Positions 8,171-64,000 of a stretch of DNA of 64,000 nt are shown here, piece by piece. Source of the stretch: Echinicola pacifica DSM 19836 (lineage in GTDB: Bacteria; Bacteroidota; Bacteroidia; Cytophagales; Cyclobacteriaceae); contig NZ_KB890755.1 of assembly GCF_000373245.1 (NCBI RefSeq), positions 109,762-173,761 on the forward strand, in the 5' to 3' direction. Both the position numbers and the translations under genes were made by a program. The number at the start of each line of letters is the position of its first letter. Position 1 is the first letter of the stretch. A model generated the notes under the pieces. It made no database searches and was not told the origin of the DNA. It saw only the letters and a list, made by a program, of their open reading frames with translations.

Positions 8171-11100
8171 TTAAAAACTTACTTTCATACCTAAAGAATA
8201 GGTTCTAGGAATAGGGTAAGCCCCTGCATTTACCTGTCTGCCACCTTCAGGATCTCCTCCACCAAACCAGTCGGTGAATACATGAAGGTTTTTTACTGAA
8301 GAATAAAATTCCAATGAATTGATTTTATATTTATCCAGGATATCCCGAGGCACACTATAGGAAAGGCTTACATCCTGTATTCTAACAAAAGTTTGGGATT
8401 GCAATCCCAGGTATCTATTGCCTACATAATCAGGCCTTAGGTAATAAGTGCTTTGATTTTCGGCTGTCCACCAGCCATGATTGACCTCATTTGTGTCAAA
8501 TCGATCGCCGAAGGAATTATGCAATGGATTCTCCTTTTGGTAGAAATTATCTTTTCCTCCACCAAACACACCAGTAAACATCACATAAAAACTGAAATTG
8601 CGATACTCCAGGGTATTTGCTAAGCTCAGTCGGAAGTTCTCCTTTCTATAGCCTAAGATCTGACGATCATAATCTGCGGTGATAATCCCGTCAGGCACTC
8701 CTTCAGGGCCACTGAGATCTTGAAATTTGGGATCCCCCGGAACAGCTCCCGTATTATCTATATAATCTGTATCAGCAGCCTGAACTACACCTATATATTT
8801 ATACCCATAAATAGCGCCCAAGGACTTACCTACAAACAGGTTGTTTGAGATGTCGTCATCCTCTACGCCATCCCCGTCGAGGTCATCACCATAAAGACTG
8901 GCAATTTCATTTCTATTTTTCCAATACAATAAATTAGAAGACCATCGGAAGTTTTCATTTTTGATATTGATCGTTCTTAGGTTTACTTCTATCCCCTTAT
9001 TATCGACCTGGCCCAAGCTCGAAATGATAGAGCTAAATCCTGTCATGATCGGTATCTGGCGCTGGAAAATCTGGTTGGTGGTTTTGGAGAAATAAAAATC
9101 TAAATCCAAAAACACTCTATTTTCCATCCAAGAGGATTGAAAACCCCCATTGAAGGAGGTGGTGGTCTCCCAGCCTAGATCAGGACTGCCAAGATTGGAC
9201 TGCTGCACACCGTATAAAATTCGGGAAGGATCATCCCCAAATTCGTAACGAATCCCTCCATCACTCCCACTTCTCACCGAGGCCAAGGTACCATAAGGGC
9301 TCACCCCTTGGTTGCCATTTTTGCCATAGGAAGCCTTTAGTTTTAGATAGTCCATTACTTCCAGGCTTTTGGCGAAGTTCTCCTCGGTCACGGTCCAAGC
9401 AAAACCTAAAGAAGGGAAATTACCCCATTTGTTTCCCCTACCAAATACGGAGGACCCATCCCTACGAAAAGTGGCCGTCACATGGTATTTATTATCAAAA
9501 GCATAATTTAACCTTCCCAAATAACCGATATTGCTCCTTTCGGTGATGTCCAGGTCTGTTCGCTGCACCGATGCCTTATGGATGCCATTGTATCCCAAAA
9601 GTGTATTGCCATTCTCAGAATAATCACTCCCATTAAGCTTGGTCACTTTAGTTCTGGTCCTATCCCGTGTCGCCACCAAGGTCAGATCCACATAGTGCTT
9701 ATCGATATTCTTTTTATAATTGATAATATTATCCATTACATAAGAGTACCGATTGGTAATATTATTGTATCCATTAGCCTGAGATAATCGTAAGCTGAGC
9801 TGAGCAGCAGAATATCGATCTATAAAAGGCTGCTCCAGCTGCTCACCTACATAATAATCTTCATGGTAAAATCGATTTTGGATATCATTATCTGAATTCA
9901 ATGATAGGTTGAACCGGTAAGAAAGGCCTTCAATGGTAGGGATTTGAACAAATGCATAGGTGGCCAATCGGTAAAAATTACGAACATCTTCATCCTGAAT
10001 GGTGTCATCCGTTCCCCATAGTGGGCTAGGTATGGAGGACCCTGTAGGATAGCGCTCCAATTTTGTACTTGTACTTCCTCCTGGATTCTCTGGCATCTCA
10101 TCCCAGCGATAGGGATACCCAAAAGGGGACATCAGATAGGCCAAGTTTAGGTTTGCACCAATGCCGGAGTAATCATTCCTGTTAAACGTACCGTCTAGGC
10201 CTACTTCCAGCCAGTCAGTAATATTAGCATCCAATTTTGACCGAACAGAAATACGCTCATACTGATCTCCCACAATCGCTCCATTATTATGATTATAACC
10301 TCCAGAGAAATAATAATTGATGGATTCGGAACGTCCAGAAACACCAATTTGATGATTTTGGATAAACCCATTTCTAGACACCAAATCCATAAAGTCAGTT
10401 TCCACTCCCTGGGCGAATAATCGTCTTCGGGTAATATCATCAAAGACTATATCATCTGGGGAATTGAAAGAAGGTCTTTGAGCCACAAATTTCTGTGTCC
10501 ACTGATCCAGGTTCATCATCTCGGGGGGACTAGGCCACTGATTCGCGCCTATCCATCCATTATATTTGATCACTGGTTTTTGCGTTTTACCTTTTTTGGT
10601 GCTAATAGCAATCACCCCATTTGCCGCCCTAGAGCCATACACCGCCGCAGAAGAAGCATCTTTCATCACATCTATGGAGGCTATATCGTCAGGATTTAAG
10701 TCAGTAAGATCCCCTAAATAGATTATCCCATCCACCACTATCAAAGGTGTATTCGAGCCATTGATAGAGTTTTGGCCCCGAATCAAAATGCTGGGATTAG
10801 TGCCTGGAGAAGCTTGAGTACCTACATTGATACCCGGCATACTTCCCTGAAGTGATTGTAGGGCATTGGTATTGGGGGATAGAGAGACCGGTGAATCTTC
10901 CAAATCTATGGTGCCCACCGCTCCGGAGATATCCTTTCTCCTCGCTGTACCGTATCCTATGACCACCACCTCTTCCAGAGATTGCGTGTCAAACTCCAGA
11001 ATCACATGGATCTCTGAGCGATTGCCTACTTCCACCTGCTGCGGCTCATAGCCTACAAAACTGACGATCAACACCGCCCCTTCTCCCACTTCCAACTTGA

Positions 11101-18024: not shown

Positions 18025-19887
18025 TCACAGGTTATCTTTTCTTACCTTAAGACTAGTGATTTCTCCCAGTAATTGTCCTTCTTTATCAAAAAGCCCTGCT
18101 TTCACTTCCTGCCCCAGGGAAACCGTCAGGAATCCATGGTACTGCTCTGATCCTGAGGTAGGCGCTGTGCCATCCAAGGTATAGAGCATCCTGTATCCCT
18201 CCGTTTCTGTCTCCAAAAACACCCTTCCTGTTTGTTCCAGAGGGCTATAAGCATAGGATCCATAGATAGAATATAAACTGTTGGAAACGGTAATCTTCTG
18301 CTGCTCCAGGCGCTGAAAATGCGTAGGAACAATTTCCTGAAATCGCTGCCAATCCTTCTGTGCGGGCACCGTCCAGGCTACCTCTGCATGGGCGATGGTC
18401 CGTGGGTAAAGCATATATTCGGTATGCTCAGCGGTGGGAGTAAATTCAGACCAGAGGCATACTTCTGTCCCTTTGATCAGGCGAGCCTGCTCTGGACTTA
18501 ATGCTTCAGGAACCGGCTCCTGACTATAAACCTTGGAAAGTGGCAAAACCACCTTGGGTCCTTCCGGCTCCATGCCCGGCGGGCCCTGCACCTGACTGAT
18601 ATACGAATAGGTATAAGAGGTCATGATCGTGGGATAGCCTTCCTGCGGAGCCTGTAGCTGAGGGCTATGCGCACCACGTCTCCAGGCCATTATCACTGCG
18701 CCTTTGGCTCCATTACCACTCAATACCTCATCCCAGGCAATCATTTTTTTATCATTCGCCGTGATCAGCTTATTCATTCGCTGGATGAAATAACTTTGCA
18801 ATTCTTCCTCATCTGCTAGTCCATGCTCCTCCTTCACCGCCTGGCAATGCGGGCATTTCTTCCAGTTGGTCTTATTGCATTCATCTCCACCGATATGGAT
18901 GTACTGAGAAGGAAATAACCCGGCAATCTCCCCGATGACTTCTTCCATAAAATCATAGGTGCTTTCCTTACCCGCACACAGGGCGTTGTCTGGGGCTTTG
19001 CCGCCCACCGCCACTTCGAATGTCGCACTATCCAGACAGGATAAGAAAGGATATGAACTTACCAGAGCCTTGCTATGCCCCGGAACATCTATCTCAGGAA
19101 TGATCTCCACATTTCGCAGACGGGCAAATTCGATCACCTCCTTGATGTCTTCCTGAGTATAAAAACCCCCAACAGACTTAGGTTCCTCCGCAGTGGCACC
19201 GGTTCTTTTCCACCAGCTTACTCCCGTCCTATCCGCACGCCAAGCTCCTTTGTCTGTAAGATTGGGGTATTTCCTGATCTCCACTCTCCAGCCTTGGTCA
19301 TCGGTAAGGTGCCAGTGAAACTTATTCATTTTGTAAGCCGCGATGATATCGATTTGCTTTTTCACAAACTCCTTAGACCTAAAATGCCTGGAAACGTCGA
19401 TCATCAAACCGCGCCATTCGAATCTTGGATGATCCTTGATCTCCACACTGGGAATGCGAGCAAGTGCCGAAGGCTGGACTGGCATCAGCTGACGCAAGGT
19501 CTGAAAGGCGTAAAATAAGCCCTTCGCCGTGCGGGCCTCCACCTGAATGGAAGATGGCTGAACACTTAGAATATAGCCTTCCTCCTCTATCTCCTTATTC
19601 TTGGTCAATAGAAAATTCACCGCTGGTGCCTCGCCTTTCTTAGGAGAACCTGACTTCACCTGTACCTTCATATTCTGATCAGCAAGTAGCTTTTCTTGAA
19701 TATAGGCTCCCAAATCTCGCTCCTGGGACTGGGGCAGGTAGAAAATCGTCTCTTCTGTAAAGAGGAATTCACCTGTCCCCTGCTCCACAGACCAAGGGTA
19801 GGGAATAAGAGCTAAAGACGATTCCTGGGCATTCGCTACAAAAATCTGGGTGATTAATACTAGAAAACCAATTATAAACTTATTCAT
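18025..19887 (-). CDS. GH20 beta-N-acetylhexosaminidase
   Basis: Removes non-reducing terminal GlcNAc/GalNAc by substrate-assisted catalysis. After the signal peptide (MNKFIIGFLVLITQIFVANA) come the GH20b domain (about 25-145), then the barrel with RGLMIDVSRHFRSKEFVKKQ and NKFHWHLTDDQGWRVEI, and the catalytic pair Asp335-Glu336 in HIGGDE. The C-terminal ~90 residues contain LYTLDGTAPTSGSEQY, a chitobiase-type accessory domain. The ATG at 19887 was chosen over a TTG six codons upstream because it opens the signal peptide. It follows a sulfatase gene by 41 bases in the six-gene operon; the sulfatase may remove a sulfate that would block this enzyme. Confidence 0.95.
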   Translation of the reverse strand: MNKFIIGFLVLITQIFVANAQESSLALIPYPWSVEQGTGEFLFTEETIFYLPQSQERDLGAYIQEKLLADQNMKVQVKSGSPKKGEAPAVNFLLTKNKEIEEEGYILSVQPSSIQVEARTAKGLFYAFQTLRQLMPVQPSALARIPSVEIKDHPRFEWRGLMIDVSRHFRSKEFVKKQIDIIAAYKMNKFHWHLTDDQGWRVEIRKYPNLTDKGAWRADRTGVSWWKRTGATAEEPKSVGGFYTQEDIKEVIEFARLRNVEIIPEIDVPGHSKALVSSYPFLSCLDSATFEVAVGGKAPDNALCAGKESTYDFMEEVIGEIAGLFPSQYIHIGGDECNKTNWKKCPHCQAVKEEHGLADEEELQSYFIQRMNKLITANDKKMIAWDEVLSGNGAKGAVIMAWRRGAHSPQLQAPQEGYPTIMTSYTYSYISQVQGPPGMEPEGPKVVLPLSKVYSQEPVPEALSPEQARLIKGTEVCLWSEFTPTAEHTEYMLYPRTIAHAEVAWTVPAQKDWQRFQEIVPTHFQRLEQQKITVSNSLYSIYGSYAYSPLEQTGRVFLETETEGYRMLYTLDGTAPTSGSEQYHGFLTVSLGQEVKAGLFDKEGQLLGEITSLKVRKDNL

Positions 19888-33973: not shown

Positions 33974-35152
33974 CTATTGCTCAGGGTAAATAATAATCCC
34001 GTCATTTTCTATACTATAGTTGAATGGGGTATGACCCTTAAATACATCCAGGATCTGAGTCAGGGACTCCTCCTTAAATGTTCCCGAATAACCCTTCTGG
34101 CTGTTCTCTATAAATTTATTTTCTATACTTATATCAAAATGTCTTTCTAAGCGCTTCAGGATATTCTCAAAGGGGTCATTGATAAAAACCAGTTCGTCCG
34201 TGGTCCAGGCGATGTATTTATTGACATTGACCTCCTCCACGTTGATGGCACCTTCCGCCGATAAGGCGCGCTGACCCGGCACGATGAGTCTAGGCTCGGC
34301 AGCGGCTGACTTGTCCTTTACCCCCACGCTGCCCTCCACCAGTACGGTGCTGGTAAATAGCTCATTGGGATAAGAAGTGACGATGAATTTGGTTCCAAAA
34401 ACCTGGGTATCCATCTGGTCGGTCACCACGGTAAAGAGCCGTTCCTTGTCTGGGGCCACCTCAAAATAAGCCTCCCCCTGTAGGTACACTGTTCTGGGCA
34501 GATCACTCAGAAAACTAATAGGAAACTTGATCCAAGAGCCAGCATTTAGCTTGACCTTGGTCCCATCCGAAAGCACGAGGTCAAACTGCTCCCCATAAGG
34601 CACGGTCAGCTTATTGTATTTCAGTTCTGTTACATTCTCCTGCACCGCATTATAATGTAGGGTCTTGCTCGAGCGGGTGATGGACACCGCTTTATTATTG
34701 CTTTCAATGATCGTGGGGGCCTGACCATCCAAGGACTGCAGCCGTCCATCCTCCAACTCCAAAGTCACACGAGAGGCGACTTGCTCTTCCACAAGGCCTT
34801 TGGTAAAGCTGCCGGAAAGATAAATAGTCAGCCCTGCCACCAACACGGTGATAAGCACCGCGGCCACTTTCAGGAAGGAGCTAAACTGGAATGGCTTAGG
34901 ACCTTTACCCTCTCTGCGCCCCTCAATGATATTCTTCCACATCTCATCTATTTCGGCCCCTTCGATCTCATCCGAATCAAAATTTAAGGCCTGAATAATC
35001 CGCCTGGCCTCAGCGACCTCATCCGCTTTTTCGGGATGCTCCAGCAGCCAGCTTTCCCAAAACTTCAGCGTCATGGCATCAGGCGCAATTATCCATTTCT
35101 GGAAGTATTCGTCTTGTACAAAGTCCTCTACACTATATTTTATATATCTCAT
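33974..35152 (-). CDS. FecR-family anti-sigma factor (second cassette)
   Basis: Inner-membrane anti-sigma factor. The N-terminal cytoplasmic part contains KFWESWLLEHPEKADEVAEA; the transmembrane helix is at about 95-115 (FLKVAAVLITVLVAGLTIYL). The periplasmic FecR domain has VPYGEQFDLVLSDGTKVKLN and LQGEAYFEV, and the C-terminal DUF4974-type domain has DPFENILKRLERHFDISIEN, YSGTFKEESLTQILDVF and YSIENDGIIIYPEQ. The insertion between the helix and the FecR domain makes it longer (392) than the first copy (341). ATG at 35152 replaces an upstream TTG at 35164. It precedes susC by 126 bases and is 662 bases from the sigma gene. Confidence 0.93.
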   Translation of the reverse strand: MRYIKYSVEDFVQDEYFQKWIIAPDAMTLKFWESWLLEHPEKADEVAEARRIIQALNFDSDEIEGAEIDEMWKNIIEGRREGKGPKPFQFSSFLKVAAVLITVLVAGLTIYLSGSFTKGLVEEQVASRVTLELEDGRLQSLDGQAPTIIESNNKAVSITRSSKTLHYNAVQENVTELKYNKLTVPYGEQFDLVLSDGTKVKLNAGSWIKFPISFLSDLPRTVYLQGEAYFEVAPDKERLFTVVTDQMDTQVFGTKFIVTSYPNELFTSTVLVEGSVGVKDKSAAAEPRLIVPGQRALSAEGAINVEEVNVNKYIAWTTDELVFINDPFENILKRLERHFDISIENKFIENSQKGYSGTFKEESLTQILDVFKGHTPFNYSIENDGIIIYPEQ

Positions 35153-35814
35153 TATCGATTTCAAAAGAAATAAATCACCAATCGCTCATTTATAGAGAGA
35201 AGATTTCTTCCTTTTTACTTATGAAAAATTTAACTTTTTTTAATAAAATTTGTAAATCGGCCTCTAAAGCCATTTATGAAGGTATTTTATTGATTAAAAA
35301 AAATCCTAATCCAGCCATCTGCAGCGACTATTATTGCCAACTTTCTAAAGACAATACTCATCATTCCCTGGGATAGTATTCTTAGGAACTTATGAATCCT
35401 AGGCTTTAGGTTAAGGACTTTTTGCTGGTGAATTAGGCCTGGCATCGGCCCTACAAAAAGTCATATGAATTATCAGGAACGTTCGCTTAGACGCTACACC
35501 TATCCGTCTGGACAATACTCTTGAAGCCAGATAGCATGTATTAAGGACCTGAAAAGTCTCTTCCTTCACCGGCTCCACACAAAACCCCTAAGAGTAGCTG
35601 ATCAGTATCCCGGACTGGTAGTAGAATGAACTTTCGTTAAAATCAAAAAAGAGGAGGCTGAAGCTTTAGACATCCAATCGGCATCAAACTATTTACACCG
35701 AAAATAGAAGGATGCTCCGGGAAAGCCTTCTGATATAGTGAATAACACCTTCTCGTCTTTTCCATACTGAAATTTTAGCCTACTATTTCTTGCAAGTTCG
35801 CTAAATCAAAACTG
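35153..35814. other. 662-bp gap between the second ECF sigma and FecR genes
   Basis: No gene-like frame on either strand, no terminator after the sigma stop, and no recognisable promoter pair. AGGCCTGGCAT (35435-35445) also occurs at about 25230 in another gap, but is too short to mean much. The gap is far longer than the short spacers usual in sigma/FecR operons and may hold a separate fecR promoter or an undescribed RNA. Confidence 0.5.
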
Positions 35815-36492
35815 CTACAGCTCAAAAAGGGCTAAGCTGAGAAGGGCTATGGCTAGGCTAAAAATATACTTAAGGTGTTTGCGCAGTAGTTTTATGGCAT
35901 GGGCCATCAAATTATAGGTGGCCTTCCTGTCGAGCTTCATCACCTCACCAATCTGATTGTAACTGAGATGGCAATAAAATTTCAAATGGATGATTTCCTT
36001 TTGCTTTTCGGTAAGCTGGCTTAGCGCGTTTTTGAGTTTTTGTCGGTCCTCATCTAAGCGCTGCTTTTCGATCAACTTTATCTCATCCGAAGCGGTGCAG
36101 GCATTTTCTAGTTCTGCTTCTTCCACCGATTTAAATAAGGAGGAAGAGGTGGTTTTCTGTTTCAGTAGCTTTCGGCGGAAGGACTTAAAAAGGTAAAATT
36201 TTATGGAGCTGACAGAGCCTAATCGATCTTTACTTTCCCAGATTTCTATAAATAAATCCTGAATACAATCTTTTACCAAGCTCTTGTCTTGTACTAACTT
36301 CAATCCATATTTATAGAGTGTCTCTACATTATCCTTATAAATGCTGGCATAAGCCTCCTCATCCCCAGCCTTAAACCTAGCCCATAATAGCTCATCATTC
36401 GCAACAGGAATAGCCTTTTGTTGCACAGCTCTGTCCTCATGCGAGGCATGCAAATTTCTGACGCTATCACTATTTTCCTTGCTAATATTCAC
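35815..36492 (-). CDS. ECF RNA polymerase sigma factor (second cassette)
   Basis: Group IV sigma factor expected to activate the second SusC/SusD cassette. Region 2: DELLWARFKAGDEEAYASIY through DCIQDLFIEIWESKDRL (about 32-90). Region 4: KNALSQLTEKQKEIIHLKFY, followed by the helix-turn-helix YNQIGEVMKLDRKATYNLMA (about 155-200). The C-terminus ends in a hydrophobic stretch (YIFSLAIALLSLALF). The frame opens with a GTG at 36492 and the first ~30 residues look unconserved, so the true start may be further in. Its neighbour on the right is the membrane-bound regulator, 466 bases away. Confidence 0.9.
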   Translation of the reverse strand: MNISKENSDSVRNLHASHEDRAVQQKAIPVANDELLWARFKAGDEEAYASIYKDNVETLYKYGLKLVQDKSLVKDCIQDLFIEIWESKDRLGSVSSIKFYLFKSFRRKLLKQKTTSSSLFKSVEEAELENACTASDEIKLIEKQRLDEDRQKLKNALSQLTEKQKEIIHLKFYCHLSYNQIGEVMKLDRKATYNLMAHAIKLLRKHLKYIFSLAIALLSLALFEL

Positions 36493-36958: not shown

Positions 36959-38101
36959 CTAATCCTCCAGCACTTCCAACTCCACCAGCTCACAGCCCAG
37001 GTCAGTTCGTCCAATGCCCGCTACCTTAAACAATGCATTGAATTGAGTATTTTGGCTAGGCAGCTGCGCATAAAAGGCTTCTAATTCTTTGGGATTGGTG
37101 AATTTCTCCACGGCAGCGATCACCCCTATATCATTATTACCAGCGAATAATAAGATGCTATTACCTCTGTCCGAAAATCTATTAAAGGACACCATGACAT
37201 AGGAATCCCTGCGCTCATTAATGCGGCTATCCCTCATGACCTCCCCAATCTGTTTATGGATAATTTGTCCTCGCTCAAGTGCAAATTTCTTGGATGATTT
37301 CAAGAACACCTCCTCTAATCGGTACAGACCTTTATATGGGCCAATATAGATGATATTATTCCGCTTTAGTTCGTCCAAAGCCAGTTCGGAGCCCAAGCTG
37401 ATGGTCAGATGTCGCTTATATTGGGTAAACCAGGAGGATAAGGCTGCGGCCGACACCGGCCCCATTTTGGTAACAAATGAATATTGGGCCTTGTCTAAAG
37501 TGGTCCAGGGGAGTGTATCCCGGGAATGGAGCGCGCGAAGCTCCGTTTCAGAATTTACCCCATCCACATAGATCGAGCTGGTAAGGCCGGTAGCATCCTT
37601 TCCCCGGAGGGTAAAATGATCCCCTACATAGCAGATGGTCTCAATCTCATCCTCCAAAAATGCAGCCCATAAATATGTATTATTTGATAGTCTGCTATAA
37701 AAAATCCCTGCAATTATAATTGCCACAACCACCAGCGCTAGGAGCAGTTTATAGGGCGTTTTACTGACTTTTCTGCGCTCTATGCTGAGGTTATATTGCC
37801 CTTTTTCGATTCTAAAAATTAGAGGATCATTCTGACCTTCCTGCTGATAATATTCATCAAGCTTATTGCGGAGGTTAAACATATACACCCTCACCTTGCC
37901 ATCATAGGAGATATCGGCCGAGGAATGCTGAAACAATTTGACCTCGATCAGGGCTTCCTTAAGCTTGAGTTTTTCAAAGTAAGCTTCCACAAGAAAGGTC
38001 AAAATCTTACTATAAACAGGCGAATCACGGAAGCTCTTGCTCAAGCAGATCCTCTCTAAGGCTTGATAAACTTGATTTGTCTCTTCTGAATTATTATTCA
38101 T
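36959..38101 (-). CDS. Membrane-anchored winged-helix (CadC/ToxR-like) transcriptional regulator, uncharacterised
   Basis: Predicted one-component transmembrane regulator. Residues about 10-107 look like an OmpR-type winged-helix DNA-binding domain: SPVYSKILTFLVEAYFEKLK, KVRVYMFNLRNKLDEYYQQE and the wing motif FRIEKGQYNLSI. A single transmembrane helix (about 117-136, LLLALVVVAIIIAGIFYSRL) follows, then about 244 periplasmic residues with ICYVGDHFTLRG, RNNIIYIGPYKGLYRLEEVF and ILLFAGNNDIGVIAAVEKF. From memory, similar N-terminal domains and a similar periplasmic half occur in uncharacterised regulators of other phyla. The ATG at 38101 is the natural start. It is divergent from GH2 with 142 bases between, which contain a 19-bp palindrome. 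The architecture is seen; the role as regulator of the GH2/GH29 pair is inference. Confidence 0.75.
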   Translation of the reverse strand: MNNNSEETNQVYQALERICLSKSFRDSPVYSKILTFLVEAYFEKLKLKEALIEVKLFQHSSADISYDGKVRVYMFNLRNKLDEYYQQEGQNDPLIFRIEKGQYNLSIERRKVSKTPYKLLLALVVVAIIIAGIFYSRLSNNTYLWAAFLEDEIETICYVGDHFTLRGKDATGLTSSIYVDGVNSETELRALHSRDTLPWTTLDKAQYSFVTKMGPVSAAALSSWFTQYKRHLTISLGSELALDELKRNNIIYIGPYKGLYRLEEVFLKSSKKFALERGQIIHKQIGEVMRDSRINERRDSYVMVSFNRFSDRGNSILLFAGNNDIGVIAAVEKFTNPKELEAFYAQLPSQNTQFNALFKVAGIGRTDLGCELVELEVLED

Positions 38102-38128: not shown

Positions 38129-38147
38129 GTTAATAACGGTTATTAAC
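38129..38147. promoter_or_regulatory. 19-bp palindrome in the divergent promoter region (candidate operator)
   Basis: GTTAATAAC (38129-38137), a single G, then the exact reverse complement GTTATTAAC (38139-38147). It lies 28 bases upstream of the regulator start and 97 upstream of the GH2 start. Position and symmetry suggest a binding site for the adjacent regulator or another dimeric protein. No second copy was noticed in the window. Confidence 0.55.
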
Positions 38148-38243
38148 TCAGTTATACTTATAATCCCCATCAACATCATGTATCTTGATTCCTCATTAAG
38201 CATAAAAAACATTTTCATACAATAGCCAATTTTAATTAACCCA

Positions 38244-41200
38244 ATGCAAGCAAAATACCTTTTCATCTTTTTGATCCTGCTGCTAAGTCATAGCAGCATA
38301 GCTCAGCGGCAAGTGATCAGCTTCAATACAGACTGGAAGTTTTACCTTCAGCAAAAGTCTCAGGATACAATTCCCGAAAATAGTGATTTAGTATGGAAAA
38401 GCGTAAAGATTCCTCATGACTGGGCGCATGAAATGGGCATTTCCCGCGATGGAGCCCAGCAGGATCGTGGGGGATATTTCGGCGGAGGAATAGGCTGGTA
38501 CAGCAAGGAGTTTGACCTCAGCGATACTGATCCCGACCTGGAAAAAGTCATATTAGAGTTTGACGGAGTATATATGAATAGCGAGGTATGGATCAATGGC
38601 CAATATCTTGGGAAGAGGCCTTATGGCTATATTTCCTTTCGCTATGATATCAGCCCCTACCTGAAGCCCAAAAACAATCAGTTAATCCTCCGGGTGGACA
38701 ACTCCCTGGAGCCCTCTGCAAGGTGGTATCATCCCTGTGGCATCTATGCCCCTGTGAGACTCATTAAGAGCCAAAACATGCGCATAGCTGCGAATGGAAT
38801 CCAGCTAAACACAAGTGAAGTGAAGGCCGATCAAGCCACCCTGACCATTGCCATGAAGCTGGAAGCAGATCAGCTGCCAAAAAAACTGAGTTATGAGCAT
38901 AAGGTATATGACCAGTCTGACCAGCTGGTGGCGGAGTATAAGCAATCTGCCAGCACCAAAAAACAAGGTGAAATAATCGTCAGGGACCAAATGACCCTGA
39001 TGGAACCACGGCTATGGAGTCCGGATCAGCCGCATCTGTATCGTGTGGAATCGAGAGTTTATAGTAAAAAGGAGCTGATAGACCAGGTGTCCACTAGCTT
39101 TGGGGTGAGGACCATCTCCTGGGAGGTGGAAACAGGATTTCACCTCAATGGCAAGCAAACCAAGCTGCTGGGAGTATGTGAGCATTATGAAGGAGGCCCG
39201 GTGGGTGGAGCATGGCCGCGGCCCTTATTGAAATGGAAGCTGATGAAGCTGAAAGACATGGGGGTAAATGCCGTAAGAACGGCTCATAACCCTGCCCCAC
39301 CCATGTTCTATGAGCTATGTGATGAACTTGGGATCATGGTGATGGATGAGATTTTTGATGGATGGAGTAAGAAAGCGCCTGAGGATTATGGAAAGCAGGC
39401 TTTTGATGACTGGTGGGAAAAAGACCTTAGCGAGTGGATTGAGCGAAATAGGAATCACCCTTCCATCATTATCTATAGTTTAGGAAATGAAACCAAAGGC
39501 GATATTGCAGCGCAGCTGGTCGCAAAATGCCATGAACTGGATCCCAGCAGGCTGGTGACCTCGGGGCATAGTGGCTCCGATTTCATGGATGTATTTGGGG
39601 TGAATGGACATAGTGAAAAAATGTCCTTTTACGAAAATCCTGAGGAACATCTTAAAAACAAACCCTTTATCGCCACGGAGGCTCCGCATACCTGGCAGAC
39701 AAGAGGATATTATAGAACCTCTACCTGGTTTAGAGATGGCTATCCCCACCCGCGCCAGGATCCCTTTCCGCTGGAAGACCTTGCGGAGGAAGAGGTATTC
39801 CATTACGAATGGGCTCCAGTATCCAAGTGGGCCAATCAAAAACAACATTTCAACTCCTCCTATGATAATGCAATGGTAAGGATCTCTGCCCGCAAAAACT
39901 GGGAACTGATGCGTGACCTGCCTTGGTTTAGTGGGCATTTTAGATGGACAGGATTTGACTATTATGGAGAAGCTGGCTATGTCCATGGCGGATGGCCATT
40001 TAGGCTATTTATGGGTGGCGCACTGGATGTGGCAGGCTTCGAAAAAGACCTGTTTTACTTCTATCAAAGTCAGTGGACCAAAGAGCCTATGACCCATATC
40101 CTACCCCACTGGACGCATCCCACCGTTGAGGAAGGCACAGAAATACCCGTTTGGGTGTATTCCAACTGTGATGAGGTGGAGCTATTCTTCAATGGAAAGT
40201 CGCTCGGAAAGGACCGACCGGGTACCCAATGGGATCAGATGCAATGTGAGTGGATGGTACCTTATCAAGAAGGAACCCTCACGGCCAAAGGTTATATAGA
40301 CGGCAAACTTGTTTCTGAAACTCATCAAAGCACCGCAAAGACTCCTTCGCACTTAGGCCTGAAGCTGGACACGAAGCAGCTCGACCCAGCAGAGGATAAG
40401 ATAGCCATCGTCACCGCCAGTACAGAGGACCAAAATGGCGTAGTCTATCCCTATGGCGAGACCAAGGTGTTTTATAAGCTGCTGGGAGATGCGCGGATAT
40501 TGGCACTGGAAAATGGTGACCCCGTGGACACCAGCCTCAATGTGGGCATCATGGAGAAGAAAGCCTTCATGGGATTGACCAATGCCTTTATAGAAATGGA
40601 AGATGCCGATAAGGCCGTAAACCTGATAGCTGGGTCCATCCTTGGAGAGAAGCAGCTTATCAGCTCCAATAAGATCTCCATTGATGTACAGTTCCTCAAT
40701 CTGCTGGGAAACAGCAGCGATCCGATGTTTAGCATCTATTATACCACCGATGGCAGCACTCCTTCCCGGTCTGGCAAGCAATATATGGAATCCTTTGAGG
40801 TCGAAAATAAAACGACGGTGCGGGCTATAGTCTATGAGGGCGAGGAAATTGTACTGACCATGGAGGAGTATTTTGCCAAGGATCAGGGTCTTTATTTTGG
40901 TCAGAAGGAGAGTATGCAGGCAGCGAGCTTAAGTGGCATGCCAGCGACAGAAGCCGAGTATAAGGGGGCTAGCCCTTCCACGGACCAGGATGGCAATGGA
41001 TATCTGGACTTTGGAGGGCAGGAAGGGTATATCAAATGGTACCAAGAAAATGACGGAAGCCGAGGGGAATATTCTCTTATCATCCGCTATGCCAGCAATG
41101 ACCCTAAATCTACACGGCCTATGGGATTATACATCAATGGGAAAAAGCGACAGACGCTGAACTTCCCTTCCACTGGACACTGGAGCAAGGAATGGGGCAC

Positions 41201-41300
41201 TGTGGAGCTAAAAGAAGTGCTAGAGGCTGGCGCCAATTATATCGAACTCCGGACGGAGGGCCAAAGTGCCGCCAATATTCTTGGGCTTACGGTAAATTAA
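38244..41300 (+). CDS. GH2-family beta-galactosidase-like enzyme with chitobiase-like and CBM6/35-like C-terminal domains
   Basis: Retaining exo-beta-glycosidase, probably a beta-galactosidase. Signal peptide 1-21 (LLSHSSIAQ). The GH2 sandwich, immunoglobulin-like and barrel domains are in order: KVILEFDGVYMNSEVWINGQ, WYHPCGIYAPVRL, LNGKQTKLLGVCEHYEGGPV, AVRTAHNPAPP. The acid/base is Glu416 in YSLGNETKG and the nucleophile Glu479 in FIATEAPHTW. Further domains follow to about 830, then a chitobiase C-terminal-like segment (FSIYYTTDGSTPSRSGKQYM, about 835-890) and a final CBM6/35-like beta-sandwich (about 895-1018, YLDFGGQEGYIKWYQENDGS). Length 1018. First gene of the only plus-strand unit. 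An 8-bp inverted repeat spans its stop codon (41296-41325). Confidence 0.92.
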   Translation: MQAKYLFIFLILLLSHSSIAQRQVISFNTDWKFYLQQKSQDTIPENSDLVWKSVKIPHDWAHEMGISRDGAQQDRGGYFGGGIGWYSKEFDLSDTDPDLEKVILEFDGVYMNSEVWINGQYLGKRPYGYISFRYDISPYLKPKNNQLILRVDNSLEPSARWYHPCGIYAPVRLIKSQNMRIAANGIQLNTSEVKADQATLTIAMKLEADQLPKKLSYEHKVYDQSDQLVAEYKQSASTKKQGEIIVRDQMTLMEPRLWSPDQPHLYRVESRVYSKKELIDQVSTSFGVRTISWEVETGFHLNGKQTKLLGVCEHYEGGPVGGAWPRPLLKWKLMKLKDMGVNAVRTAHNPAPPMFYELCDELGIMVMDEIFDGWSKKAPEDYGKQAFDDWWEKDLSEWIERNRNHPSIIIYSLGNETKGDIAAQLVAKCHELDPSRLVTSGHSGSDFMDVFGVNGHSEKMSFYENPEEHLKNKPFIATEAPHTWQTRGYYRTSTWFRDGYPHPRQDPFPLEDLAEEEVFHYEWAPVSKWANQKQHFNSSYDNAMVRISARKNWELMRDLPWFSGHFRWTGFDYYGEAGYVHGGWPFRLFMGGALDVAGFEKDLFYFYQSQWTKEPMTHILPHWTHPTVEEGTEIPVWVYSNCDEVELFFNGKSLGKDRPGTQWDQMQCEWMVPYQEGTLTAKGYIDGKLVSETHQSTAKTPSHLGLKLDTKQLDPAEDKIAIVTASTEDQNGVVYPYGETKVFYKLLGDARILALENGDPVDTSLNVGIMEKKAFMGLTNAFIEMEDADKAVNLIAGSILGEKQLISSNKISIDVQFLNLLGNSSDPMFSIYYTTDGSTPSRSGKQYMESFEVENKTTVRAIVYEGEEIVLTMEEYFAKDQGLYFGQKESMQAASLSGMPATEAEYKGASPSTDQDGNGYLDFGGQEGYIKWYQENDGSRGEYSLIIRYASNDPKSTRPMGLYINGKKRQTLNFPSTGHWSKEWGTVELKEVLEAGANYIELRTEGQSAANILGLTVN

Positions 41301-41405
41301 TCCTTCCAATATATTTCGGATTAATATACTGCCTCTAAACCAGAAATTAGTTTTGGGTGAATGAATTAAGATAATCAAGTGACTAGTAACATTGTCATAA
41401 GCGAT

Positions 41406-42779
41406 ATGAAAAGAATAATGATAATTACGCTGCTAAGTCTGATGACGATGGTGGCGTATGGCCAGGAGAAAAAAATCTGGGATGAAAGTGCTCAGGAAAA
41501 GAAGGATCGATTAGAGTGGTGGGTAAATGACCGTTTTGGCTTGTTTATTCATTGGGGGACCTATTCGCTGGCTGCTCGCCACGAGAAGGTGATGAAGAAC
41601 GAAAAGATGTCGGACAAGCAATATAAGCGGTATTTTGACAATTTTAACCCTGACTTATATGAGCCAGCAGAATGGGCAAAAATGGCCAAAGAAGCAGGAA
41701 TGAAATATGCGGTAATTACCACTAAGCATCATGAAGGATTCACGCTCTTTGATTCAGAATATACGGACTATAAGGTCACGAACACCCCTTATGGCAAGGA
41801 TGCGCTAAGGGAGTGGGTGGATGCTTTCAGAGCTGAAGGCTTGAAAATAGGCTTTTATTACTCCATGATCGACTGGCATCATCCCGACTATACCATTGAC
41901 CGGGTGCACCCACATGCACCGAAGAATGAGGCCGATTATGAGAAGTTGAATAAGGATAGAGATATGGAGGTCTATCGAGAGTATCTCAAAAATCAAGTCA
42001 CCGAAATCCTCACTAATTATGGCAAGGTGGACATGTTATGGATGGATTTCTCCTTTCCTGGTGAGCATGGCAAGGGCCGTGAGGACTGGGGAGCAGTGGA
42101 GCTAATGAAGCTCATCCGTAAGTTGCAGCCGGGAATAATTGTCAATGATCGCCTAGATCTCAAAGAATATGAAGGGGGATGGGATTTCACCACTCCTGAG
42201 CAATTTAAAGTCAATGAATGGCCTACCTATAATGGTGAAAAAATCCCTTGGGAGACCTGCCAGACCTTCAGTGGCTCATGGGGCTATTACAGGGACGAAA
42301 TGACCTGGAAAAGCAATAAGCAATTGCTCGTTTTGCTCATCGAGTCAGTGAGTAAAGGGGGTAATTTGCTACTGAATGTGGGACCTACCGGCAGGGGAAC
42401 GATAGACTATAGAGCTGAAAACGTCCTCCAAGACATGGGCGAGTGGATGAAATATAATTCCAGAGCGATCTACGAATGCACGCAGGCTCCGGAGGAATTT
42501 GAAGTTCCTGACAATTCACTATTGACTTACAACCCTAAAACCAATAGGCTGTACATTCACTTATTGGACTATCCATTGCAGAATTTCACGCTTAAAGGCA
42601 TGAAAGGAAAGATCAACTATGTGCAGTTTTTGCATGATGGATCAGAAATTAAAATCACCAAACCGCATGGCTTTGGGCCGGGAGCAGGTCAGGGCTTAGG
42701 TGAAAATGACCTGAACCTTTCTCTTCCTGTGACCAAGCCCAATGTGGAAATCCCAGTGATCGAGATTATCTTGAATTAA
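41406..42779 (+). CDS. GH29 alpha-L-fucosidase (second copy)
   Basis: Exported exo-fucosidase. Signal peptide MKRIMIITLLSLMTMVAYGQ. Barrel signatures: VNDRFGLFIHWGTYSLAARH, VITTKHHEGFTLFD and FYYSMIDWHHPDY, with the nucleophile Asp in DMLWMDFSFPGEHG; SKGGNLLLNVGPTGRG follows. A short C-terminal beta domain ends the protein. The ATG at 41406 is preferred to a GTG at 41379, because it opens the signal peptide. It follows GH2 by 105 bases on the plus strand and so is probably co-transcribed. A TAGTTTTG at 41348-41355 matches the -7 element, but no TTG partner is placed correctly. Compared with the first GH29 it has HHEG instead of HHDG and a different C-terminal half. Confidence 0.94.
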   Translation: MKRIMIITLLSLMTMVAYGQEKKIWDESAQEKKDRLEWWVNDRFGLFIHWGTYSLAARHEKVMKNEKMSDKQYKRYFDNFNPDLYEPAEWAKMAKEAGMKYAVITTKHHEGFTLFDSEYTDYKVTNTPYGKDALREWVDAFRAEGLKIGFYYSMIDWHHPDYTIDRVHPHAPKNEADYEKLNKDRDMEVYREYLKNQVTEILTNYGKVDMLWMDFSFPGEHGKGREDWGAVELMKLIRKLQPGIIVNDRLDLKEYEGGWDFTTPEQFKVNEWPTYNGEKIPWETCQTFSGSWGYYRDEMTWKSNKQLLVLLIESVSKGGNLLLNVGPTGRGTIDYRAENVLQDMGEWMKYNSRAIYECTQAPEEFEVPDNSLLTYNPKTNRLYIHLLDYPLQNFTLKGMKGKINYVQFLHDGSEIKITKPHGFGPGAGQGLGENDLNLSLPVTKPNVEIPVIEIILN

Positions 42780-62680: not shown

Positions 62681-64000
62681 TCAATTGAGACTATTACTTT
62701 CTTCGGCACCCAAAAACTCCTTTTGAAAGGTGCTGGGGGATTTGCCATATTGCTTTTTAAAGCATACTCCGAAATAGCTCAGGTCATTAAACCCTGTCAT
62801 ATAAGCGACCTCGGAAATATTAATTTCTTTCTCTTCCAGAAGCTGAGCCGCACGGCGCAGCCTTATATTTTTGATAAATTCGTTAGGGGTAATGTCCAGG
62901 ATTCCCTTGATCTTACGGTAAAACATGGAGTTGCTCATGCCCAAATCTTCACAAAGTAACTTCACCGAAAACTCTGTTTCGGAAATATTATTTTCCACAA
63001 TCTCCTTGGCCTTCATCAGGAATTCCTCATCGATGGAAGAGTTTACGATTTTCTTAGGTTCCAGAAAAGCCCCGGTATTGAAGTCGGCATGTACTTTTTC
63101 ACGGCTTTTCAGCAAGGCTTCCAGTCGGTATATAAGTACCTCAAAGTTAATCGGTTTGGTGAGATAAGAATCTGCTCCTGCCTCATATCCGATCAGTCGA
63201 TCCTGGTCTTCGGTTCTGGCGGTGACAATCACAAATGGGATATGACTGGTATTGACATCCGATTTGATCTTTTTGCAAAGCTCAAAACCGTCCATCTCCG
63301 GCACCATCAAATCCGATACGATCAGGTCTATATCGTTATTATTCGCCAATTCTAGCGCTTCTGTACCAGTCTGAGCCGTGATCACCTTATAATAAAGACT
63401 CAAATAAGTCTCCATCAGCACCAGGAAGTCCGGGTTATCCTCCACCAATAGGAGTTTCTTACCAGAGTATTTGATATCCGTGAAGGGGTTCAGCTGCTTC
63501 CTGCTCCTCCGCTCAATGGACTCGATTTCTTCCTCCTCCGGAAAGCTTATCTGGGTAGAAGGTATGAGGGAATTGTCTGTGGTGGAAAGAGGTATTGTCA
63601 ACTCAAAGGAGGTGCCCTCCCCTTCCACACTATCCACCATAATCTGGCCTCCCTGGAGGGCGATCAGGTGCTGGGTGAGCGCCAGGCCGATCCCCAGGCC
63701 ATCTTCAAAATGATTGATGGCAGAAAGCCTATAAAATCGGTTGAAGATCTTGTCCAGGTGTTCCTTAGGAATCCCCCTGCCCGTATCGGTCACCTTTATA
63801 TACAATGACCTGGCCCCACCGGCCTCCTGTTGAATTGCCTCCAGGTTTACCAAGCCACCCTTTGGGGTGTATTTTATAGCATTTGAGAGCAGGTTGTTTA
63901 AGCACATCTCCAGTTTTTCCCGGTCCATCTTACCGGAAATATTCTCCTGCACAGCATAGTCCAGGCGTACGCCCTTATCTGCGGCCACCACCTGGTAGTT
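62681..64000 (-). CDS. Hybrid two-component sensor kinase / response regulator (HTCS), N-terminal part outside window
   Basis: C-terminal 439 residues of a one-protein two-component system; the frame is open to base 64000, so the periplasmic sensor, membrane helix and probably the phospho-acceptor His domain lie outside. Seen in order: HATPase (CLNNLLSNAIKYTPKGG, VTDTGRGIPKEHLDKIFNRF, GLGIGLALTQHLIALQGG), receiver domain (LLLVEDNPDFL, phospho-acceptor Asp in IVSDLMVPEMDG, Lys in YLTKPI) and an AraC-type DNA-binding domain (LCEDLGMSNSMFYRKIKGIL, ISEVAYMTGFNDLSYFGVCF). HTCS proteins usually sense a PUL-derived oligosaccharide and activate the neighbouring operon, here plausibly the unit starting at 62437. 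Confidence 0.95.
   Translation of the reverse strand, partial: NYQVVAADKGVRLDYAVQENISGKMDREKLEMCLNNLLSNAIKYTPKGGLVNLEAIQQEAGGARSLYIKVTDTGRGIPKEHLDKIFNRFYRLSAINHFEDGLGIGLALTQHLIALQGGQIMVDSVEGEGTSFELTIPLSTTDNSLIPSTQISFPEEEEIESIERRSRKQLNPFTDIKYSGKKLLLVEDNPDFLVLMETYLSLYYKVITAQTGTEALELANNNDIDLIVSDLMVPEMDGFELCKKIKSDVNTSHIPFVIVTARTEDQDRLIGYEAGADSYLTKPINFEVLIYRLEALLKSREKVHADFNTGAFLEPKKIVNSSIDEEFLMKAKEIVENNISETEFSVKLLCEDLGMSNSMFYRKIKGILDITPNEFIKNIRLRRAAQLLEEKEINISEVAYMTGFNDLSYFGVCFKKQYGKSPSTFQKEFLGAEESNSLN

Follow-up and report, generated by a model that had tools for sequence, protein, structure and literature searches.

The DNA analysed here, called the window throughout, is a stretch of 64,000 nucleotides from the 5.4 Mb genome of Echinicola pacifica. 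Its minus strand carries the gene of a putative regulator that we name WHR. Facing WHR on the plus strand are the genes of a GH2 enzyme and a GH29 enzyme, predicted to form the target operon. The features that concern us are the following.

33974-35164, minus strand: FecR anti-sigma factor (Pfam; context, outside the WHR system)
35815-36492, minus strand: ECF sigma factor (Pfam; context, outside the WHR system)
36959-38101, minus strand: regulator gene WHR, 380 amino acids, ATG start, stop codon included (homologues)
36962-37675, minus strand: predicted periplasmic domain, residues 143-380, candidate sensor (modelled with pTM 0.90; Pfam and PDB sequence searches without match)
37688-37753, minus strand: predicted single transmembrane helix, residues 117-138 (model; hydropathy)
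37775-38074, minus strand: predicted winged-helix DNA-binding domain, residues 10-109 (model; Trans_reg_C matched weakly by 39 of 82 members; hhalign)
38129-38147, plus strand: candidate operator GTTAATAACGGTTATTAAC, a perfect 19-bp palindrome with core TAACGGTTA (sole TAACSGTTA of the window; no second exact copy in the genome)
38129-38154, plus strand: three GTTA words (38129, 38139, 38151), which may correspond to the three repeats of the family
38181-38188, plus strand: weak candidate -7 element TATCTTGA, with two mismatches to TAnnTTTG
38244-41300, plus strand: GH2 enzyme of the DUF4982 type, opening the predicted target operon (Pfam; 47-48% identical GH2 in loci L045 and L046)
41379-42779, plus strand: GH29 alpha-L-fucosidase, following GH2 in the predicted target operon (Pfam)

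The GH2 and GH29 genes are the sole plus-strand genes among the open reading frames of at least 90 amino acids picked in the window, and 142 bp separate them from WHR, in agreement with a first-pass annotation that had described WHR as divergent from the only plus-strand enzyme unit. Downstream of WHR, the minus strand carries the ECF sigma and FecR genes along with SusC and SusD, and sulfatase genes lie beyond GH29 (Pfam). The SusC and SusD genes of the window are likely controlled by their own ECF-sigma/FecR pair. The right edge (62681-64000) holds the end of an HTCS with HATPase, receiver and AraC domains (Pfam). Three kinds of glycan regulator, namely HTCS, ECF/FecR and WHR, are thus found in one region.

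The full-length AlphaFold model of WHR has a mean pLDDT of 90.1. It was built from an alignment (A2) of 82 sequences, comprising the window protein and 81 of the 83 homologues of loci L044-L123; one truncated homologue and one at a contig edge were left out, and two smaller alignments (A3 and A4) hold 71 and 44 of the same 82 sequences. An OmpR-type winged helix consists of a helix, a second helix, a recognition helix and a wing, in that order. The modelled N-terminus of WHR has helices at residues 28-42, 49-57 and 69-87, followed by hairpin strands at 94-98 and 105-109, and the predicted order of elements is that of an OmpR-type winged helix. The first-pass annotation had placed such a domain at residues 10-107, and the model has it at about 10-109. 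Sequence searches with WHR alone returned nothing significant from Pfam, NCBIfam or the PDB, and no Pfam match at E<=0.1. Trans_reg_C (PF00486) gives a weak match in 39 of the 82 aligned members at E<=0.1 (best 1.7e-5); nine members were scanned singly, of which five scored 15.6-17.5 bits, below the 26.2-bit Pfam cut-off, and four had no match. A profile of the N-terminal domain aligned by hhalign with five OmpR-type domains encoded in the same genome gave P=3.3e-4 and a probability of 38%.

The best 19-residue hydropathy value is 2.5 in WHR and exceeds 1.6 in 76/82 members. Net charge on either side of the transmembrane helix favours an inside N-terminus in 44/82 members, and we infer that the N-terminal domain is cytoplasmic and the C-terminal domain periplasmic. 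All 82 aligned members have a tryptophan at the position of Trp145 (codon 37667-37669), shortly past the helix. About 240 residues after the helix are modelled as one domain (pLDDT 92.7), which reaches a pTM of 0.90 when modelled alone from 71 sequences; the earlier proposal of one transmembrane helix and about 244 periplasmic residues agrees well with this. Foldseek found no match to this domain below E 0.001. All its matches had E>0.01, the best being BcsB (E 0.016, probability up to 0.99), and a GH67 glucuronidase was matched with a probability of up to 0.97; TM-scores with BcsB and GH67 are about 0.3. Kinship of the modelled outer domain to carbohydrate-handling folds is therefore to be taken as a hint only.

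The predicted arrangement resembles that of ToxR/CadC-type transmembrane regulators (TTRs), which are one-component proteins with an N-terminal OmpR-type winged helix, one transmembrane helix and a C-terminal periplasmic domain. A CadC/ToxR-like layout had been suggested for WHR from the letters of the sequence, and the predicted domain order bears this out. WHR differs from these proteins in that it has no PDB sequence match, in that CadC and ToxR are absent among the 50 Foldseek matches listed per search, and in that its predicted targets are operons for glycan use. One census of TTRs identified DNA-binding domains through Pfam models (PMC10269533). WHR has no Pfam DNA-binding match, and a Pfam-based census of this kind would probably miss it.

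Relatives of WHR are found in many Bacteroidota. The same genome encodes one further homologue (29% identical), and a single-protein scan of the genome contigs with WHR found no relative. Matches occur in 18 of 59 close genomes sampled, 57 of 390 genomes of the taxonomic family and, at E<=1e-10, 15 of 395 genomes of the phylum; some of these matches cover the N-terminal domain only, within larger proteins. A profile scan of species genomes, which relied on a single peptide pattern, gave 154 loci; the best 80 of the 154 are all Bacteroidota by name and include many marine genera (Zobellia, Lutibacter, Aquimarina, Labilibacter, Flammeovirga). In 18 genomes checked, the number of matches per genome ranges from 1 to 12, with the maximum in Labilibacter marinus. 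The periplasmic domain seems tied to the WHR architecture, since 25 of its 25 matches in 291 genomes of the order fall in open reading frames of 379-422 amino acids. Larger proteins of about 490-575 amino acids share the N-terminal domain at 29-34% identity over some 100 residues, where the match stops. The L040-L043 loci, for instance, carry this domain in proteins of 491-527 amino acids that have no periplasmic part.

Divergence from the upstream gene is a nearly constant property of the family. Of the 96 distinct homologue genes whose 5' neighbour can be seen, 95 are divergent from it, and the exception (L087) lies downstream of a same-strand transposase. Other open reading frames of at least 150 amino acids in the same loci are divergent in 234 of 804 cases. 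Before the removal of four loci that had been fetched twice the count was 99/100, with a median gap of 184 bp; start codons follow the longest open reading frame, so that gap lengths are rough. A narrower count of 81/81 leaves out genes at locus ends, L087 included. The homologues retain both halves of the protein and 95/96 retain the divergence, and hence the arrangement seen at WHR is not due to chance.

The divergent neighbours are mostly genes of glycan use. By clusters and Pfam, 86/96 are carbohydrate-linked, which rejects the possibility that homologues are scattered without glycan-gene neighbours and agrees with the first-pass expectation that they adjoin glycan genes. The 96 neighbours comprise GH2 (22), GH88/BNR_4 (15), SusC-type (14), glucuronate isomerase (7), GH43-like (6), sulfatase (5), GH115 (4) and DUF6807 (3) genes; two each of GH141, GH31, GH3, GH43 and sortilin/BNR; two without Pfam match; and one each of GH29, UxuA, 3-keto-disaccharide hydrolase, GH catalytic core, GH28-like, Gfo/Idh, PSD1 and transposase. 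DUF6807, sortilin, Gfo/Idh, PSD1, transposase and the two without Pfam match are not counted among the 86, and so 10/96 are not clearly carbohydrate genes. The figure of 86 assigns Pfam families by cluster: about 10 of the 15 GH88/BNR_4 members carry BNR_4 alone, two of the six GH43-like members (L068 and L113) match nothing when scanned singly, and the matches of L051 and L058 to GH43 and GH141 fall below cut-offs. As a control, 68 proteins of divergent pairs from 20 random loci of related genomes were matched to Pfam, and no glycan family with at least two members was present among the 25 of 130 families listed. Only 2/68 of these proteins, one PSD1 and one SusC-type receptor, resemble any neighbour of the family.

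When neighbour type is mapped on a tree of 97 proteins, it switches no fewer than 32 times, mostly to another gene of glycan use. This bears on what the outer domain may sense. As in CadC and ToxR, the periplasmic domain could respond to a signal other than a sugar, such as a partner protein, envelope stress or pH. Such a signal would suit a domain that serves GH2, SusC, UxaC and sulfatase loci alike and that the Pfam and PDB searches relate to no known sugar-binding domain. We nevertheless regard it as rather unlikely, because the frequent changes of neighbour remain largely among glycan-use genes and because carbohydrate-handling proteins are what the outer domain weakly matches in fold.

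Sulfatases are enriched around the family. With window proteins as BLAST queries, a sulfatase was found within about 10 kb in 32/80 family loci and in 1/20 control loci. SusC and SusD of the window, which make for a conservative test, found relatives within about 10 kb in 14/80 and 4/80 family loci and in 3/20 and 0/20 random loci, respectively. Since sulfatases are enriched and SusC is not, the term glycan-operon regulator fits better than PUL regulator. In L045 and L046 (Saccharicrinis and Labilibacter), the divergent gene set includes the GH2 relative of the window's GH2 as well as sulfatases. The tie between regulator and predicted target is thus kept in these two of the window's three nearest relatives (L044-L046).

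The promoters of the family share a candidate operator, TTTAACGGTANNTATAACGGTTAAA. Alignment of the intergenic regions reveals a block common to loci with different neighbours. The set comprises 92 regions (100 genes minus four duplicate loci, L087 and three with less than 30 bp of intergenic DNA), of which 89 regions of at least 60 bp were used for the k-mer test. TAACGGT is the most enriched 7-mer, present in 74/89 regions where dinucleotide shuffles lead one to expect about 3. It is found in 74/92 family regions, in 6/166 intergenic regions of random loci and in 9/451 other intergenic regions of the family loci. A hold-out matrix (nine Echinicola regions) exceeds a score of 12 in 51/81 other family regions versus 0/166 and 2/451 in the same two controls, and at the lowest threshold of 8 the counts are 59/81 versus 2/166 and 4/451. 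When the matrix is trained on the regions that it scores, 71/92 exceed 12 versus 0/166 and 1/451.

The operator holds a fixed position relative to the promoter of the neighbour. On the neighbour strand, the operator-anchored alignment shows GTTA three times, at spacings of 12 and 11 bp, and then, at a constant distance, a TTT, with T in 51/62, 54/60 and 51/60 regions. The -7 box of Bacteroidota has the consensus TAnnTTTG. The TTT at fixed distance is, as judged from sequence, part of such a box. Exact TAnnTTTG on the neighbour strand (63 regions) is seen at +47 from the operator centre in 13 cases and at any other offset between 28 and 99 in 3; among 22 non-redundant regions the counts are 5 versus 2, and with one mismatch allowed (63 regions) they are 25 versus 49. 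Orientation of the operator is uniform in 63 of the 64 regions that score above 20. The operator is thus situated just upstream of the -7 box at a fixed distance, a position that suits an activator, and WHR probably acts as an activator of the GH2-GH29 operon. A membrane-bound repressor would instead occupy the operator when substrate is missing, silence both divergent genes and be released by the periplasmic signal. The operator centre, at a median of 54 bp from the start codon of the regulator, could block the promoter on that side, and the palindrome of the window is compact, like many repressor sites. On the side of the neighbour, however, the family site stops short of the -7 box by a constant interval and leaves it uncovered, and three repeats at 11-12 bp resemble the activator sites of PhoB and OmpR, as is generally known. 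Repression is thus improbable in our judgement, and activation is the reading that we carry forward.

In the window, TAACSGTTA occurs once in 64 kb (38134-38142), where 0.17 occurrences are expected; 16/100 shuffled windows have at least one copy, so the core word alone is not rare. With up to 3 mismatches allowed, none of 100 shuffles contains the full palindrome GTTAATAACGGTTATTAAC. In the genome it has one exact copy, and two other places at three mismatches correspond to background. The putative -7 element TATCTTGA begins 30 bp past the third GTTA, the same spacing as in the family. On the family matrix the window operator reaches a score of only 13, and in the window's clade of 21 rows only 6/21 regions score above 20. 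The three nearest relatives (L044-L046) have partial sites, none with exact TAACSGTTA. Given the poor fit of the clade and the partial sites of the nearest relatives, the exact operator of the window is less certain than the operator of the family. The sole promoter in the window with a site is that of GH2-GH29. Regulation of the whole PUL, considered as an alternative scope, is rejected on account of this single core site. The first-pass view of WHR as a regulator within a PUL therefore stands as far as a glycan operon is concerned and falls for the PUL as a whole, given also that SusC and SusD are no more frequent near the homologues than at random.

Exact copies of the tandem form of the site lie mostly beside family genes. 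They number 28 across 28 genomes, against 0 for the reversed control, and by coordinates 26 of them lie beside a family gene, just upstream of it. The two exact sites with no adjoining family gene precede a SusC gene and a GH88 gene. Copies with one mismatch are just upstream of a family gene in 9/10 cases. Allowing up to 2 mismatches in 27 genomes yields 69 tandem matches versus 83 for the reversed control, which amounts to background; 31/69 are two-mismatch sites, and 11 of these 31 are beside a family gene, 4 of the 11 overlapping an exact site. For the window's own genome, up to 2 mismatches yield 2 tandem matches versus 13 in the reversed control, and the genome's second family gene has its own tandem site, which is the single exact match to a slightly looser pattern.

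These counts also speak to the possibility that the operator belongs to another factor and that the membrane protein is merely linked to the target genes. The sites are known by computation alone, and one exact site in Labilibacter marinus (L236, 8563-10371) lies 138 bp upstream of GH88, a typical target of the family, with no adjoining family gene; a 149-aa open reading frame with a weak ECF-transporter-like match occupies the expected position of the regulator. If the factor were encoded elsewhere, one would nonetheless not expect that, irrespective of the target, a family gene adjoins 26 of the 28 exact sites from 28 genomes, and we consider this explanation most unlikely. Binding of the site by the adjacently encoded family member is what we infer from its distribution.

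One Echinicola genome (G002) has two sites apart from its regulator, each upstream of a SusC gene (L235, G002:C1:926000-945999, at 8590-8612 and 19361-19383). The first SusC lies some 17 kb away from the regulator of G002 and shares 75-77% identity with the gene divergent from the regulator in eight other Echinicola genomes; the second shares 89% identity with the gene in that position in a ninth genome of the genus (G008). The G002 regulator itself faces a different large gene. Both parted SusC genes retain the site, which indicates that the site stayed with the target after the regulator was separated from it. The parted sites constitute a natural test of target assignment.

Taking the computed evidence together, we consider it likely that WHR is a one-component regulator of the inner membrane that controls the divergent GH2-GH29 operon through the TAACSGTTA-type operator and senses a periplasmic signal. 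In the mechanism that we propose, WHR would be anchored in the inner membrane with its N-terminal winged helix in the cytoplasm. The winged helix, presumably in a dimer, would bind the predicted TAACSGTTA-type operator between the WHR gene and GH2-GH29. The C-terminal domain, on the periplasmic side, would respond to a signal, the most likely candidate being an oligosaccharide set free as the locus breaks down its glycan. Operator binding would most likely activate the GH2-GH29 operon and also control the gene of WHR itself. As in ToxR/CadC, DNA binding and activation would take place from the membrane; the operator and the promoter geometry are the observations that bear on this. A different route would have full-length WHR as a precursor, from which proteolysis triggered by the signal frees the winged helix into the cytoplasm. 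Mechanisms of this kind are generally known for other factors held in membranes. No pointer to proteolysis was noticed in the sequence, however, and CadC and ToxR are generally known to act from the membrane, which renders cleavage a very improbable step.

Among regulators of glycan use, SusR is the closest in role. As described in a Bacteroides regulon study, SusR is a one-component regulator of the inner membrane with a periplasmic sensor and a C-terminal HTH, and its predicted sites are two boxes that are 67 or 77 bp apart (PMC3878776). Compared with these descriptions, WHR has its DNA-binding domain at the N-terminus rather than the C-terminus, and the repeats of its family are 11-12 bp apart. 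HTCS proteins, like WHR, combine periplasmic sensing and DNA binding in one polypeptide and are found near PUL genes. They have kinase, receiver and AraC domains, whereas WHR has no such Pfam match. The ECF sigma/FecR systems likewise control SusC-linked operons across the inner membrane; unlike WHR, which has no sigma-70 or FecR match in Pfam, they are two-protein sigma-factor systems. WHR is ToxR/CadC-like in its predicted layout and SusR-like in its proposed role, and it does not have all features of either family.

Three kinds of Bacteroidetes-specific PUL regulator, namely SusR-like, HTCS and ECF/anti-sigma, are named in the Bacteroides regulon study (PMC3878776). A review of hemicellulase genes lists HTCS, ECF and catabolite repression as common (PMC10766802), and a carrageenan regulon study names other regulator types (PMC5698469). 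No earlier description of the WHR family was found among the open-licence papers listed, and the family is apparently undescribed. The first-pass suggestion of an undescribed class of PUL regulator is upheld to that extent, and it is tempered by SusR, which is itself a membrane-bound one-component PUL regulator according to the same study (PMC3878776). The case is evenly poised for a further glycan-regulator class across the Bacteroidota, beside HTCS, ECF/FecR and SusR. Its members would combine a transmembrane winged-helix build with a periplasmic sensor fold not described before, which may bind carbohydrate and be distantly akin to BcsB or GH67 domains, and each copy would read one sugar and fire one divergent operon through an operator that is readable across the family. 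If this is true, targets can be read from genome sequence alone, and a class with so recognisable an operator would permit target prediction in many marine genomes. The class would also offer many paralogous sensors, the ligands of which could be guessed from the adjoining enzymes. It may be an overlooked route by which such bacteria sense complex sugars, and it would provide a clean system to learn how a transcription factor works from the membrane.

Some loci contain more than one family gene. Flavobacterium sp. 7A has two nearly identical regulators with the same operator, one of which faces GH2 and the other a GH141-like beta-helix gene. In this strain, L056 and L058 are two similar blocks of two family genes each, by appearance the product of a recent duplication. 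In L054 (9995-12392), two family genes are convergent, end to end, and each is divergent from its own enzyme gene, a sulfatase cluster on one side and GH115 on the other.
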